Of a stretch of DNA of 64,000 nt, positions 50,149 through 55,278 are shown in pieces (the first letter of the stretch is position 1; the number at the start of each line of letters is the position of its first letter). Source of the stretch: Nostoc sp. FACHB-152 (GTDB taxonomy: Bacteria; Cyanobacteriota; Cyanobacteriia; Cyanobacteriales; Nostocaceae); assembly GCF_014697475.1 (NCBI RefSeq), contig NZ_JACJRV010000022.1, positions 1-64,000 on the forward strand, in the 5' to 3' direction. Position numbers and translations under genes: made by a program. The notes beneath the pieces were generated by a model that made no database searches, had not been told where the DNA came from, and saw only the letters and a list, made by a program, of their open reading frames with translations.

Positions 50149-52041
50149 ATGGAAATTCGCGGTATTTGGATAACTACAACAGGTAGCCAAGTTTTTGACT
50201 CCAAACAAAATATTGTTAAAGCAATGAACTTGCTTGCTGAAACAGGATTCAACGTAGTATTTCCTGTTGTCTGGAATAACGGTTTAACTACGTATCTCAG
50301 CCGAGTTATGCGAGAAAACTTTGGCACAGAAATAAATCCACGATTTCAAGGTAGAGATCCTTTAGCAGAATTAATTATTGAAGCTAAACGAGTTAATATC
50401 GCTGTTATTCCTTGGTTTGAGTATGGATTTGCTAGTTCTTATAAAAAGAACGGTGGGTCAATCATCGCCAAAAAACCAGAATGGGCAGCCCGTGACTCTG
50501 CTGGTAATTTATTAATTAAAAATGGTTTTGAGTGGTTGAATGCTTTTGATAACGAAGTGCAGAACTTTTTACTAAGTTTATTCCTAGAAGTCGTTAAAAA
50601 TTATGAAGTTGCAGGTATTCAAGGAGATGATCGCTTTCCTGCTTTCCCCAGTGAAGGTGGTTACGATTCAAAAACTGTTGAACGCTATAAACAAGAGTTT
50701 AATCAACTACCTCCAGAAAATGTGAAAGAACCAAAGTGGTTACAGTGGCGGGCTGATATTCTGACAAATTTTCTCACGCGCGTCTACCGTGAAATAATTA
50801 ATGTTAATCCAGATTTAATTATTTCACTTGCTCCGAGTGCTTATCCTTGGAGTCATGAGAACTATCTACAAGATTCTAAAACTTGGGTAGAACAGGGATT
50901 AGTCGATTTAATTCATCCGCAGTTATATTACCGAGAGTTTGAACTTTATAAGAGAGATATAGATAGAGTAGTAGCTAATCAATTTACAAAAGAACAACTG
51001 CCCCAGCTAATACCAGGTGTGCTGTTAAAACAAAATACATATATAATTACTCCACAACATTTAGTCCAGGCATTAAAATATAACCGTTCTGTTGGTATTA
51101 AAGGAGAAGTTTTATTCTTTTATGAAGCTTTAATAGAAGATAATAACGCTTTAGCTAAAGTTCTACAATCAGAGGTTTACTCTCAATCTCCTGGTAATTT
51201 TGATCAGAAAGAAATTAAAAAATTCAGTTTTACTCATCGACGGATAAATAGTAATTTCAAGTACATAAATCCATCACAGGAAACAGTTCTCAAAGCCCAA
51301 TTTGATTGGGTTGAACAATTTTCGGAAGGGATGGCAGCCGTTAAGATGGGATACAAATCCAGTTACATTGATAAAACAGGTAAACTTATCAGCCGCCTGC
51401 GGTTTGATACTGCTGCACCTTTTTCAGAAGGACTAGCCCTAGTAAAAATTAATAATAAATATGGGTATATCGATAAAAATGCCAAACTAGTCATACCCTT
51501 ACAATTTGATGATGCGGTATCTTTTTCATCAGGTATGGCAGCTATAAAAATAGCTAATAAGTGGGGATATATTGAGCAAACAGGCAAAATCATTATTTCT
51601 GCTCAATTTGATGAAGCTAAATCATTATCTGAGGACTTAGCAGCCGTAAAAATAGATAATAAATGGGGATATATTAATCAAACAAGTCAAACTAGAATTG
51701 ACTTTCAATTTGATGAGGCTGGAAGATTTTCTGAAAGTTTAGCAGCAGTTAAAATTTTGAATAAATCAGGTTATATAGATAAATTTGGTAATTTTATAAT
51801 CGAGCCAAAATTTGATGAAGCTGATATTTTTTCTCAAGGGGTAGCTTCTGTCAAAATAGATAATAAATGGGGATATATTAATCAGTTTGGTGAGTTTATT
51901 ATTCAACCAATTTTTGATTTTGCTAAACCATTTTATCAAAGTATGGCATTAGTTAATATAGGTGGAGAATTTAAACGATATGAGGAACAAGGAAAAGCTT
52001 ATTTTACAGGAGGTAAATGGGGATATATCCGTAAACCTTAA
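50149..52041 (+). CDS. GHL10-type glycosidase with C-terminal WG repeats
   Basis: The 630-residue protein has a DUF187/GHL10 barrel (about residues 1-340: RGIWITTTGSQVFDSK, FPVVWNNGLTTYL, VIPWFEYGF, and GIQGDDRFPAFPSEGGYDSK) followed by at least six WG repeats (about 380-630), each near KxxxKWGYI. It resembles the secreted paralogue at 34479-35735, but has no signal peptide of its own and no ribosome-binding site before ATG 50149. It follows the SLH gene in frame, separated only by TAA TTC. Function inferred as polysaccharide or wall-associated hydrolase; the repeats may bind protein or wall. Confidence 0.85.
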   Translation: MEIRGIWITTTGSQVFDSKQNIVKAMNLLAETGFNVVFPVVWNNGLTTYLSRVMRENFGTEINPRFQGRDPLAELIIEAKRVNIAVIPWFEYGFASSYKKNGGSIIAKKPEWAARDSAGNLLIKNGFEWLNAFDNEVQNFLLSLFLEVVKNYEVAGIQGDDRFPAFPSEGGYDSKTVERYKQEFNQLPPENVKEPKWLQWRADILTNFLTRVYREIINVNPDLIISLAPSAYPWSHENYLQDSKTWVEQGLVDLIHPQLYYREFELYKRDIDRVVANQFTKEQLPQLIPGVLLKQNTYIITPQHLVQALKYNRSVGIKGEVLFFYEALIEDNNALAKVLQSEVYSQSPGNFDQKEIKKFSFTHRRINSNFKYINPSQETVLKAQFDWVEQFSEGMAAVKMGYKSSYIDKTGKLISRLRFDTAAPFSEGLALVKINNKYGYIDKNAKLVIPLQFDDAVSFSSGMAAIKIANKWGYIEQTGKIIISAQFDEAKSLSEDLAAVKIDNKWGYINQTSQTRIDFQFDEAGRFSESLAAVKILNKSGYIDKFGNFIIEPKFDEADIFSQGVASVKIDNKWGYINQFGEFIIQPIFDFAKPFYQSMALVNIGGEFKRYEEQGKAYFTGGKWGYIRKP

Positions 52042-52616: not shown

Positions 52617-53834
52617 TCATGCTGGCTTATGATCTAAACGAACAGCCGCCTCTAAAGCAGCTTTTTCTTTGGCGCGGCGGGCATAAGGCTGTAATTGAGT
52701 GCGATCGCAACCTGTCAGAATACTCAAATCTTCCAAGTTCATCCCTCGCATAATCATTTCTACACGCCAAGTTTGTTGGGCTTGGGAAATTTCTGGTATT
52801 TTTCCTTGAGGTGTGAGTAGTCCTTGAGTCCAAAGTTGCCAACGTTGCAGCAATTCAGCTTCAGACATAGAGTTACCTTCAACACCAATAAACATAGCTG
52901 GATGATGATCTTTACGACTTTTTAACCACTTCATTAGAGGATTATTAGTGTAAGCACCATAATGTTTACCTAAAATCCATTGATTTACAGGTACTTGGCG
53001 AGGTAACCCTGGGGTGGTAATTTGGAGAAAGTGTCCTTGGGGATCACATACTTGGTGCAATCGCTGCAAGCCAATTATTTCTGGAACTGATAAGCCAGCA
53101 CCAAATAACAAGTATGCTAAAGCATAATCCTGTATTCCTGACTTTTTGGCATTTTGCAGAATTTCGTGGACTAAAATCGCAGGTAAGTCAACTACTTCAC
53201 TGGCAATTAAGGCTTCTATTGCTGATTGCGGCGCAGAGGACATAGCTCCATGTAAAAACAACTCTACTAAATTCTCTAAAAAATCATTTCGATCTTCCCA
53301 CAGTTCATGAAATTCACTTGTGAATTCAATTACTGCATAACCCAAAATCATGCCATTGAGTAAACTAGCTAATTTTTCTGCCGGAAGATAGGTATTAATG
53401 TCTCCTTGCTGGATGACAGTAGCTAAATATTGAGCTACATAGCGATTGGCTTCTGTTAATCCTCGTCCCAAAGCACGGCGATGTTCCGCCGGAAATTGGT
53501 CTGCTTCACCGACTACAGAGCGCACAAATTCCGGGACTCGTTCTAATGTATGTAAGCTTTCACTTGCATAATCTTTCAGGGCTTGATAGACGTTACCAGG
53601 AGGAGTAGCCCGTTTGACTAGAGATTCTCCCAAATCCTTAAAAGCTGCTGATTCTTCTAATACAGCTAAAAGTAGCCCATGTTTATTACCAAAATGGCGA
53701 AATAGCGTCACTTCATTAACTTCAGCTTTTTCGGCGATTTGACGCGTAGTAGTACTACTGACTCCCTGGGTAGTAAATAAATCTAATGCTGCCTGAATAA
53801 GGCGTTGACGGGCTGAAATAGATTGAGATGCCAT
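52617..53834 (-). CDS. TetR-family transcriptional regulator (long form)
   Basis: The protein starts with a TetR DNA-binding domain: RQRLIQAALDLFTTQGVSST, TRQIAEKAEVNEVTLFRHFG, NKHGLLLAVLEE. It is unusually long (about 405 residues from the chosen start), with extra C-terminal sequence. I chose ATG 53834 because the operator-like palindrome at 53844-53858 would otherwise be coding; TTG at 53870 is the alternative. It is divergent from an acyl desaturase gene, with two matching palindromes between, so it probably represses itself and the desaturase in response to a fatty-acyl ligand, which is inference. Confidence 0.85.
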   Translation of the reverse strand: MASQSISARQRLIQAALDLFTTQGVSSTTTRQIAEKAEVNEVTLFRHFGNKHGLLLAVLEESAAFKDLGESLVKRATPPGNVYQALKDYASESLHTLERVPEFVRSVVGEADQFPAEHRRALGRGLTEANRYVAQYLATVIQQGDINTYLPAEKLASLLNGMILGYAVIEFTSEFHELWEDRNDFLENLVELFLHGAMSSAPQSAIEALIASEVVDLPAILVHEILQNAKKSGIQDYALAYLLFGAGLSVPEIIGLQRLHQVCDPQGHFLQITTPGLPRQVPVNQWILGKHYGAYTNNPLMKWLKSRKDHHPAMFIGVEGNSMSEAELLQRWQLWTQGLLTPQGKIPEISQAQQTWRVEMIMRGMNLEDLSILTGCDRTQLQPYARRAKEKAALEAAVRLDHKPA

Positions 53835-53843
53835 AAGAAAAAT

Positions 53844-53858
53844 GCAAGTGCCACTTGC
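53844..53858. promoter_or_regulatory. Putative TetR operator 1
   Basis: GCAAGTGCCACTTGC is a nearly perfect palindrome, extendable to TGCAAGTG-C-CACTTGCA (53843-53859). It lies 9 nt upstream of the chosen TetR start, where binding would block that gene's expression. Confidence 0.6.
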
Positions 53859-53890
53859 ACAAAATTTCAATAGTTGTTACGATGCCTAAT

Positions 53891-53905
53891 GTAAGTGATA
53901 CTTGC
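53891..53905. promoter_or_regulatory. Putative TetR operator 2
   Basis: GTAAGTGATACTTGC matches operator 1 at 12 of 15 positions and shares the pattern GYAAGTGNYACTTGC. It lies 33 nt from operator 1 and before both possible desaturase starts, positioned to regulate the divergent desaturase. Confidence 0.55.
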
Positions 53906-54008
53906 TTCACTCCACTGTAACGAACTAGTTTACAGAATGGAAAAATTTATTGGGAAAGCTTGCCGAAAATCAAGCAAATCACTTCATGATCCATCAACGG
54001 AATTGTTT

Positions 54009-54863
54009 ATGACTGCAAAGTATCTGGCGGTTGCCCCTGAGACAAGAAATTCACCTCGTATCAGATGGGTGAATGTGGCATTTTTTGCGACTATTCATGC
54101 CTTAGCTTTATTGGCTCCTTGGTTTTTTTCTTGGTCAGCGCTAGGATTGTTGGTGTTTCTCCATTGGCTGTTCGGAAGTATTGGCATCTGCTTAGGATAT
54201 CATCGACTATTAAGCCATCGGAGTTTCCAAGTACCCAAGTGGTTAGAATATGCGATCGCCACTATTGGAGCCTTAGCTATGCAAGGTGGGCCGATTTTTT
54301 GGATTGGTGGACACCGCCAGCATCACGCCCACACAGAAGATATCAACTTAGATCCCTACTCTGCCAAGCGTGGATTTTGGTGGAGTCATATGCTGTGGAT
54401 TCTGTGTCCTCGTCCTGAGTTTTTTGACTATGAAGTTTATAAGAAATATGCGCCTGACCTTGAAAGACAACCTTACTATCGCTGGTTAGATCGCTACTTT
54501 TTATTGTTGCAAATTCCCTTGGGAATCTTGCTATATGCTTTAGGCGGTTGGTCTTTTGTAGTTTATGGGATGTTTGTAAGAGCAGTCTTGTTGTGGCACT
54601 CCACTTGGTTTGTCAATTCTGCATCACACATTTGGGGTTATCGCACCTTTGATGCCAACGATGAAGCGCGTAACTTGTGGTGGGTATCACTTCTAACTCA
54701 TGGCGAAGGCTGGCACAACAATCATCATACCTTTCCCCACGTAGCCAAATCTGGCTTTCAGTGGTGGGAGATTGATATCACTTGGTGGAGTATTAAAGCT
54801 TTAAAAACATTAGGTTTAGCCAAGAAAGTAGTATTACCCCCGCAAGTTGTAGGTCAAAAATGA
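54009..54863 (+). CDS. desC: Acyl desaturase (delta-9 DesC type)
   Basis: This membrane di-iron desaturase introduces a double bond into acyl chains. The three histidine boxes are HRLLSH, HRQHH and HNNHH, and several hydrophobic helices lie between (such as WVNVAFFATIHALALLAPWF). It resembles delta-9 acyl-lipid desaturases (DesC) of Nostoc; the position of the double bond and the glycerol position used (sn-1 or sn-2) are not deducible. I chose ATG 54009; ATG 53938 is the upstream in-frame alternative, giving 24 extra residues. Divergently transcribed from a TetR-family regulator with two putative operators. Confidence 0.88.
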   Translation: MTAKYLAVAPETRNSPRIRWVNVAFFATIHALALLAPWFFSWSALGLLVFLHWLFGSIGICLGYHRLLSHRSFQVPKWLEYAIATIGALAMQGGPIFWIGGHRQHHAHTEDINLDPYSAKRGFWWSHMLWILCPRPEFFDYEVYKKYAPDLERQPYYRWLDRYFLLLQIPLGILLYALGGWSFVVYGMFVRAVLLWHSTWFVNSASHIWGYRTFDANDEARNLWWVSLLTHGEGWHNNHHTFPHVAKSGFQWWEIDITWWSIKALKTLGLAKKVVLPPQVVGQK

Positions 54864-54864
54864 A

Positions 54865-55278
54865 TTAGCTGAGAGTTGCCAAGAAAACCTCTGGCAGCAT
54901 AACGGGGATAGTAGCTAGACGAAAATCCTTAATATTGCGGGTGACAATTGCTTCTATCCCTGCGGCTCTAGCAGATGCATGAGTCACCGCATCCTCAAAA
55001 TCAGTAAATGAACTTGCAAGTGCTTCTCTAATTACCGCATCTGTAACTGCGGCAACCTGAAGTTTAGACATCAAAGTATTTAATGTTTCTCGGCTCTTTT
55101 CACTACCTAAATGTTTTCTTAAAATATAGAACAGATTAGTTATTGTATGTGCTGCTAAGTATCCTTCTACCTTTCCTTGAGCAACCGTATCAATTGCTAA
55201 TGCTGAGGCTGTAAAAAAAGGCTGGCGTTGCAGCAACACATCAAGAACTACATCAGTATCGAAAAGTATCCCTTTCAC
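54865..55278 (-). CDS. PIN-domain protein (toxin-like)
   Basis: The 137-residue PIN-domain protein begins ILFDTDVVLDVLLQRQPF with the first catalytic Asp, and later has DFEDAVTHASARAAG and IVTRNIKDF with the conserved acidic and Thr-Arg residues. It is the second gene of a pair whose first gene (antitoxin-like) overlaps it by 4 nt. Activity would be RNA cleavage; target unknown. Start ATG 55278. Confidence 0.82.
   Translation of the reverse strand: MKGILFDTDVVLDVLLQRQPFFTASALAIDTVAQGKVEGYLAAHTITNLFYILRKHLGSEKSRETLNTLMSKLQVAAVTDAVIREALASSFTDFEDAVTHASARAAGIEAIVTRNIKDFRLATIPVMLPEVFLATLS

Follow-up and report, generated by a model that had tools for sequence, protein, structure and literature searches.

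Among the proteins of the TetR family, FabR is a regulator related to DesT. DesT, FabR and MadR are known as TetR repressors of desaturases, and MadR is released by saturated acyl-CoA of C16-C24, according to the available text of PMC8872791. In the open-access literature that was searched, no description was found of what regulates the second delta-9 desaturase of cyanobacteria. How, then, does a cyanobacterial locus with a TetR-type gene beside such a desaturase compare with these systems? The window considered here is a stretch of 64,000 nucleotides from a contig of Nostoc sp. FACHB-152, and the following features are of concern.

52617..53834, minus strand: TetR-family regulator gene, 405 amino acids plus stop (TetR_N match, translation)
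53661..53801, minus strand: DNA-binding TetR helix-turn-helix, residues 12-58 (Pfam PF00440)
52620..53204, minus strand: degenerate tyrosine recombinase (XerC/XerD-like) domain, approximately residues 211-405 (PF00589, XerC model, Foldseek, hhalign)
53844..53858, no strand: predicted operator 1, a palindrome conserved with its flanks, about ATGYAAGTRNYACTTGCA
53855..53860, plus strand: predicted -35 of the desaturase promoter, TTGCAC (TTGCA conserved)
53875..53883, plus strand: predicted extended -10, with TG at 53875-53876 and TACGAT at 53878-53883 (TGnTAnnnT conserved)
53891..53905, no strand: predicted operator 2, lying roughly where transcription is predicted to begin, as judged from its position after the -10
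54009..54863, plus strand: acyl desaturase of the DesC type (delta-9), probably DesC2, 284 amino acids plus stop (FA_desaturase, histidine boxes)

A first-pass annotation of the window had described two matching palindromes between divergent genes for a long TetR-type protein and a desaturase with three histidine boxes. Both palindromes are present, GCAAGTGCCACTTGC at 53844-53858 and GTAAGTGATACTTGC at 53891-53905, 47 bp apart from centre to centre, and the flanking genes are as described: the minus-strand TetR-type protein of 405 amino acids has its start codon at 53834, the plus-strand three-histidine-box desaturase begins at 54009-54011, a start codon whose position is also occupied by ATG in 106 of the other 113 distinct regions (see below), and the space from 53835 to 54008 lies between them. 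Two neighbors were noticed by eye: a gene for a PIN-domain-like protein directly 3' of the desaturase on the opposite strand (54865-55278, minus strand), and a plus-strand gene (50149-52041) for a protein of 630 amino acids with a glycosidase-like part followed by several WGYI-type repeats.

The desaturase matches FA_desaturase with an E-value of 5.3e-21 (76 bits, cut-off 29.7), and its histidine boxes, read from the translation, are HRLLSH, HRQHH and HNNHH. DesC-type enzymes are defined by the boxes HR-X3-H, HR-X-HH and HN-X-HH (section 3.2 in the available text of PMC2593844), and the window protein has the domain and all three boxes of a DesC-type delta-9 desaturase. Another delta-9 paralog of the same genome, 51% identical, is located on contig C126 among other desaturases. 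This layout is like the one suggested for Anabaena PCC 7120 by a table in the available text of PMC2593844, which assigns the adjacent numbers all1599, all1598 and all1597 to d9, d12 and d15. By elimination the window gene is probably of the DesC2 type. DesC2 is sn-2 specific, and cyanobacterial DesC enzymes act on lipid-bound chains (both from the available text of PMC4390868). In a sigE mutant, all4991, of which the window desaturase would be the ortholog, is lowered at 8 h past nitrogen deprivation (log2 -1.06, p 0.022; section 3.3 in the available text of PMC4390870), a weak link between sigE and the window gene.

Are the palindromes peculiar to this locus? When both strands of the window are searched for GYAAGTGNYACTTGC with up to two mismatches, 7 matches are found against 1.4 expected, a number reached in none of 100 shuffles, and 4 of the 7 come from the two palindromes. 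The exact GYAAGTGNYACTTGC pattern occurs in the whole 8.6 Mb genome at these two places only. Because none of the fetched loci of the other 11 of the 12 desaturase matches in this genome carries a site within one mismatch, the palindromes look dedicated to this locus. A wider regulon was also considered and, as far as exact matches tell, rejected, the only other exact GYAAGTRNYACTTGC match of the genome (C2:78611) being inside an open reading frame. The genome has a second desaturase copy at C1:4975-5805 (L217), 69% identical to the window desaturase, whose best match to the site within 600 bp has 4 mismatches.

The same annotation had proposed a dedicated circuit of TetR protein and desaturase, which would be contradicted if the palindromes were not conserved in orthologous intergenic regions. 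Acyl-CoA sensing after the manner of DesT and a link with temperature or lipid supply, also suggested there, would be speculative. A scan over contigs gave 150 relatives of the regulator, of which 80, matched from residue 1, were kept, and the desaturase adjoins the regulator in all 80. Among 386 sampled genomes of the phylum, at least 42, the window's own included, have the regulator at E <= 1e-60; this number is a lower bound, at most four candidates having been scored per genome. The loci of all 42 could be used. The window, the 80 relatives and the 41 others make up 122 intergenic regions, 114 of them distinct, with TetR identity down to 40%, and in 121 of 121 related loci the desaturase is divergent from the regulator. 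A pair of sites, defined as two matches to GYAAGYRNYRCTTRC with at most two mismatches per site and 40-100 bp apart, is found in all 114 distinct regions and in none of 2280 mononucleotide shuffles. It is to be noted that GYAAGYRNYRCTTRC was chosen with the sites already known, which makes the shuffle count a check on chance and not an independent test, and that many of the 114 regions come from close relatives and are hence not independent of each other. The two sites together show no mismatch in 106 regions, one in six, two in one, and three in one. The spacing is 47 bp in 74 regions, 46 bp in 24 and 48 bp in 9, that is, 46-48 bp in 107 of 114, and it is 44, 45, 51 (twice), 52, 53 and 85 bp in the remaining ones.

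This conservation extends further. Another 24 genomes, mostly distant and all matching the regulator profile at E <= 1e-30, were inspected; in one the N-terminal part was out of reach and it was set aside, and protein sequences were left aside at two loci whose assumed start was wrong. The pair is found in 21 of the 23 readable genomes, with spacings of 46-83 bp (58-83 bp in four of them) and at most two summed mismatches, a single site is found in another, and the last one, in which the desaturase has the same orientation as the regulator, has no pair within 500 bp. The conservation check thus did not refute the proposal, and conserved gene order, sites and promoter geometry, which were read by comparison of sequences, give strong support to a dedicated circuit. 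Strict helical phasing was rejected as the cause of the spacing: this ranges over 44-53 bp, is once 85 bp, and reaches 83 bp in the distant genomes; 47 bp corresponds to about 4.5 turns; and the distances that are fixed are those of the core promoter.

The sites also follow the regulator gene in its presence and absence. In a sample of 60 relatives the regulator is found in 37 and the desaturase (E <= 1e-110) in 40, all the 37 included. Of the 37 genomes that have the regulator, 33 contain an exact GYAAGTRNYACTTGC in some place and four do not; of the 23 that lack the regulator, 4 contain it. Three genomes possess the desaturase without the regulator, and upstream of their desaturase genes the closest sequences differ from the site at 4, 4 and 5 positions, the stretch covered being 600 bp in two of them and only 107 bp, up to the contig end, in the third. 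Of 29 new loci fetched by GYAAGTRNYACTTGC, five have neither the regulator nor the desaturase, two of them from genomes bearing the regulator elsewhere; these five are read as background. In one relative a second desaturase copy (L214, G399:C526), with a single internal TGA, is accompanied by a site pair of its own at a spacing of 47 bp; the fetched stretch shows no match to the regulator, as would fit a target elsewhere in the genome. The best matches near the extra desaturase copies L215, L216 and L217 have 3, 4 and 4 mismatches.

What is located between and under the two sites? In 110 of the 114 distinct regions an extended -10, TGnTAnnnT, stands between them, and the -35, whose first letters belong to the right half of site 1, precedes it by a spacer of 17 bp in 99 regions and of 18 bp in 11. 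The -35 hexamer starts with TTGCA in 109 of these 110 regions, and site 2 starts 6 or 7 bp past the -10 in 106 of them. Compared with the consensus, the window hexamers agree in 3 of 6 letters at the -35 and in 4 of 6 at the -10, and a generic sigma-70 promoter scan reported nothing in the window, this stretch included. A distant relative without TGnTAnnnT (L172) has site 1 at 85 bp from site 2, and by eye a TTGTCA is found 17 bp before TAAGCT, where site 1 normally stands; such a replacement hexamer is what one would predict if, in the ordinary arrangement, site 1 also serves as the -35. The sites thus likely bracket the desaturase promoter. For the regulator gene, inspection by eye brought out no conserved promoter. 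The idea that one -10 works in both directions, for the two genes alike, was considered and discarded, as the reverse extended -10 is found in only 59 of the 110 regions and, by eye, not in the window. As a separate observation, a TACTGTAAC-like motif (TACT[GT]TA[AG]C) occurs past site 2 in 48 of the 110 regions, and in the window it falls within 53905-53960.

Operator positions over the -35 and the start are typical of repressors. From the same sites the regulator might instead activate the desaturase, and the joint conservation of sites and gene is compatible with this, although it does not give the sign of regulation; since the two sites lie across the -35 and the predicted start, respectively, and since an unsystematic look upstream of the -35 revealed no additional conserved site, activation is quite improbable. 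It might also be supposed that the palindromes are not protein-binding DNA at all, and act as RNA hairpins, an attenuator or a terminator, in the transcripts. A terminator scan indeed flags, on the minus strand, site 1 and the T-rich run that follows it, just ahead of the start codon of the regulator. Arm positions 5 and 9 of this site show 12 departures from T-A, and 2 of these change both sides, to C-G. However, the other 10 of these 12, as well as all 13 changes in site 2, are one-sided, 19 of the 24 arm positions of both sites are 98-100% one letter, which is beyond the need of pairing alone, and a T at position 1 opposite G in 10 of 114 copies of site 1 would make an A-C mismatch in the regulator mRNA. 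Moreover, site 2 is placed close to where the desaturase transcript would begin, and the pattern tracks the regulator gene. Hairpins therefore deserve very little credence. A local repressor acting at the two palindromes is the reading that we prefer and consider quite probable on these comparisons, together with the view, discussed below, that the C-terminal part of this TetR-family protein is an exapted and catalytically dead recombinase domain.

The TetR part of the regulator is clearly recognised at residues 12-58 (TetR_N, E 2.4e-14, 53.3 bits, cut-off 24), and the ligand-binding C-terminal subfamily TetR_C_7 gives a score of 21.3 bits against a cut-off of 22. As in other members of the TetR family, whose genes are often divergent, palindromic sites, at which binding is predicted, adjoin its own gene. 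The unusual length of the protein had led to the suggestion that its C-terminus carries something extra, which was right in form: the C-terminal ~195 residues are a degenerate tyrosine recombinase domain of the XerC/XerD-like kind. In the full regulator, residues 227-335 give weak XerC/XerD matches. When the domain is taken alone, 27 of 28 aligned members match PF00589 at E <= 1; the strongest match reaches 6e-11, and that of the window's own domain, at 0.057, is below the curated cut-off. The XerC model is matched by 27 of 28 at E <= 0.01. Of two phage integrase families, one is matched by 9 and the other by 5 of the 28 members, in neither case by the window's own. The domain profile also matches a XerC-like protein of known structure (4.3e-5). 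An AlphaFold2 model of the isolated domain (pLDDT 82.7, pTM 0.81) has XerA as its best Foldseek match (E 4.7e-7, TM 0.66 by query), and the best 50 of 248 matches at E <= 10 are tyrosine recombinases, 21 of them at E <= 0.001. The model of the full-length regulator is poorer (pLDDT 71, pTM 0.48), and its best matches are again XerA, with TetR proteins from rank 8. Finally, hhalign of the domain against recombinases of the same genome, five of the seven loci being taken in, gave a probability of 94.7% (E 6.3e-8), compared with 0.3% for the TetR part as a control. In three regulators of 449-463 amino acids (L177, L178 and L179), a long variable linker is found between the TetR and the recombinase-like parts.

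Can this domain still recombine DNA at the palindromes? It has the XerA/XerC fold, and a tyrosine is kept at the catalytic position in nearly all members. For the catalytic count, 146 regulator sequences were taken, three shorter than 380 amino acids were left out (two cut by the end of the locus, and L180, described below), and the 143 remaining ones gave 119 distinct domains. Not one of the 119 has the complete set R..HxxR..H/W..Y: the first arginine is kept in 1, the histidine before the second arginine in 0, the second arginine in 7, the H/W residue, whose column is alignment-dependent and off by one residue between two alignments, in 22 (all W), and the tyrosine in 118. The best-preserved domain (L134) has four of the five residues, and a few relatives that are farther away, outside the 119, have another residue even in place of the tyrosine, as read by eye. 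Furthermore, the pair persists in 114 of 114 regions, with no apparent loss by excision. A site-specific recombinase that is still active has next to no probability.

Should the domain, then, be taken as a dispensable relic without function? One regulator, a TetR protein of 236 amino acids (L180, G011), lacks such a domain, and yet the pair of sites, at a spacing of 47 bp, and a divergent desaturase are present at its locus; the domain is therefore not needed to specify the sites. In a tree of the TetR part, with one paralog as outgroup, L180 falls inside the domain-bearing group, which suggests that it lost the domain. The domain is also less constrained than the TetR part, as dN/dS in seven comparisons is 0.09-0.20 for the domain against 0.02-0.05 for the TetR part. 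These values are nevertheless near those of the desaturase (0.07-0.11), so that, judged by substitution rates, the domain is under purifying selection, and this argues against a mere relic. Its wide occurrence points in the same direction: among 388 genomes sampled from the class, 189 have it at E <= 1e-12, a count that genuine recombinases could in principle enter, though the 24 genomes followed up all matched the regulator profile, and its core is recognisable down to about 40% identity. We thus regard a functionless relic as unlikely. As for a strong DNA-binding charge of the domain, which was considered as well, its mean net charge is mildly positive (+2.9 over 120 sequences), compared with -7 to +15 for the C-terminal 190 residues in five of the genome's own recombinases.

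For the preferred reading of a local repressor, we infer binding, repression, autoregulation, a ligand and a role of the C-terminal domain as follows. Dimers of the TetR part would bind the two palindromes, where site 1 covers the predicted -35 of the desaturase and closely precedes the start codon of the regulator itself, and site 2 covers the predicted start site of the desaturase. Binding would shut off the desaturase and, by its position, the regulator itself. Repression and autoregulation are proposed because the sites bracket the likely desaturase promoter at its -35 and predicted start, and autoregulation would depend on site 1, 9 bp from the regulator start codon, as no conserved regulator promoter was seen. 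A ligand, most plausibly a signal derived from fatty acids or lipids, would release the repressor, and the C-terminal domain is supposed to be a module for assembly, DNA contact or sensing rather than an enzyme. Recombinases pair their sites. It might be possible, though this is a speculative extension and rather doubtful, that the dead recombinase domain pairs or bends the two operator-bound dimers, by which the desaturase promoter would be locked in a closed nucleoprotein complex; if true, what was once a site-specific recombinase would, throughout the cyanobacteria, have become a genetic switch that acts on membrane unsaturation.

Many cyanobacteria thus likely have a desaturase and its probable repressor gene under a common control region of two sites. 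This makes a single fixed control region with one candidate regulator, which is testable in laboratory cyanobacteria, and the regulator looks like a case in which an inactivated site-specific recombinase domain was recruited into a one-component transcription factor. A fusion of TetR with an inactivated recombinase was not found reported in the open-access literature that was searched, outside of which most subscription papers fall. TetR repressors of desaturases and an inactivated recombinase used as a targeting protein are known apart from each other; no case of the two united in a one-component regulator came up there, and such a case would be new.

The control of an unsaturation or desaturase gene by a TetR-type protein is seemingly analogous to that by DesT in Pseudomonas aeruginosa and FabR in E. 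coli, from which the window regulator differs by its extra recombinase-derived domain and by a score below the cut-off of the FabR model PRK11202 (26.2 bits against 151). Mycobacterial MadR is likewise a TetR-family repressor of desaturase genes, desA1 and desA2, and an added recombinase-derived domain, which the window regulator has, is not mentioned for it in the available text of PMC8872791. With XerA, XerC and XerD, the C-terminal domain has fold and sequence in common, whereas it has lost the catalytic set and has a TetR part in front. In TnsF of Tn6022, too, an inactivated tyrosine recombinase domain has been exapted and combined with another part, but, as far as the available text of PMC10293859 tells, TnsF is a target selector of a transposon, with zinc fingers and a partial catalytic domain, and not a regulator of transcription.
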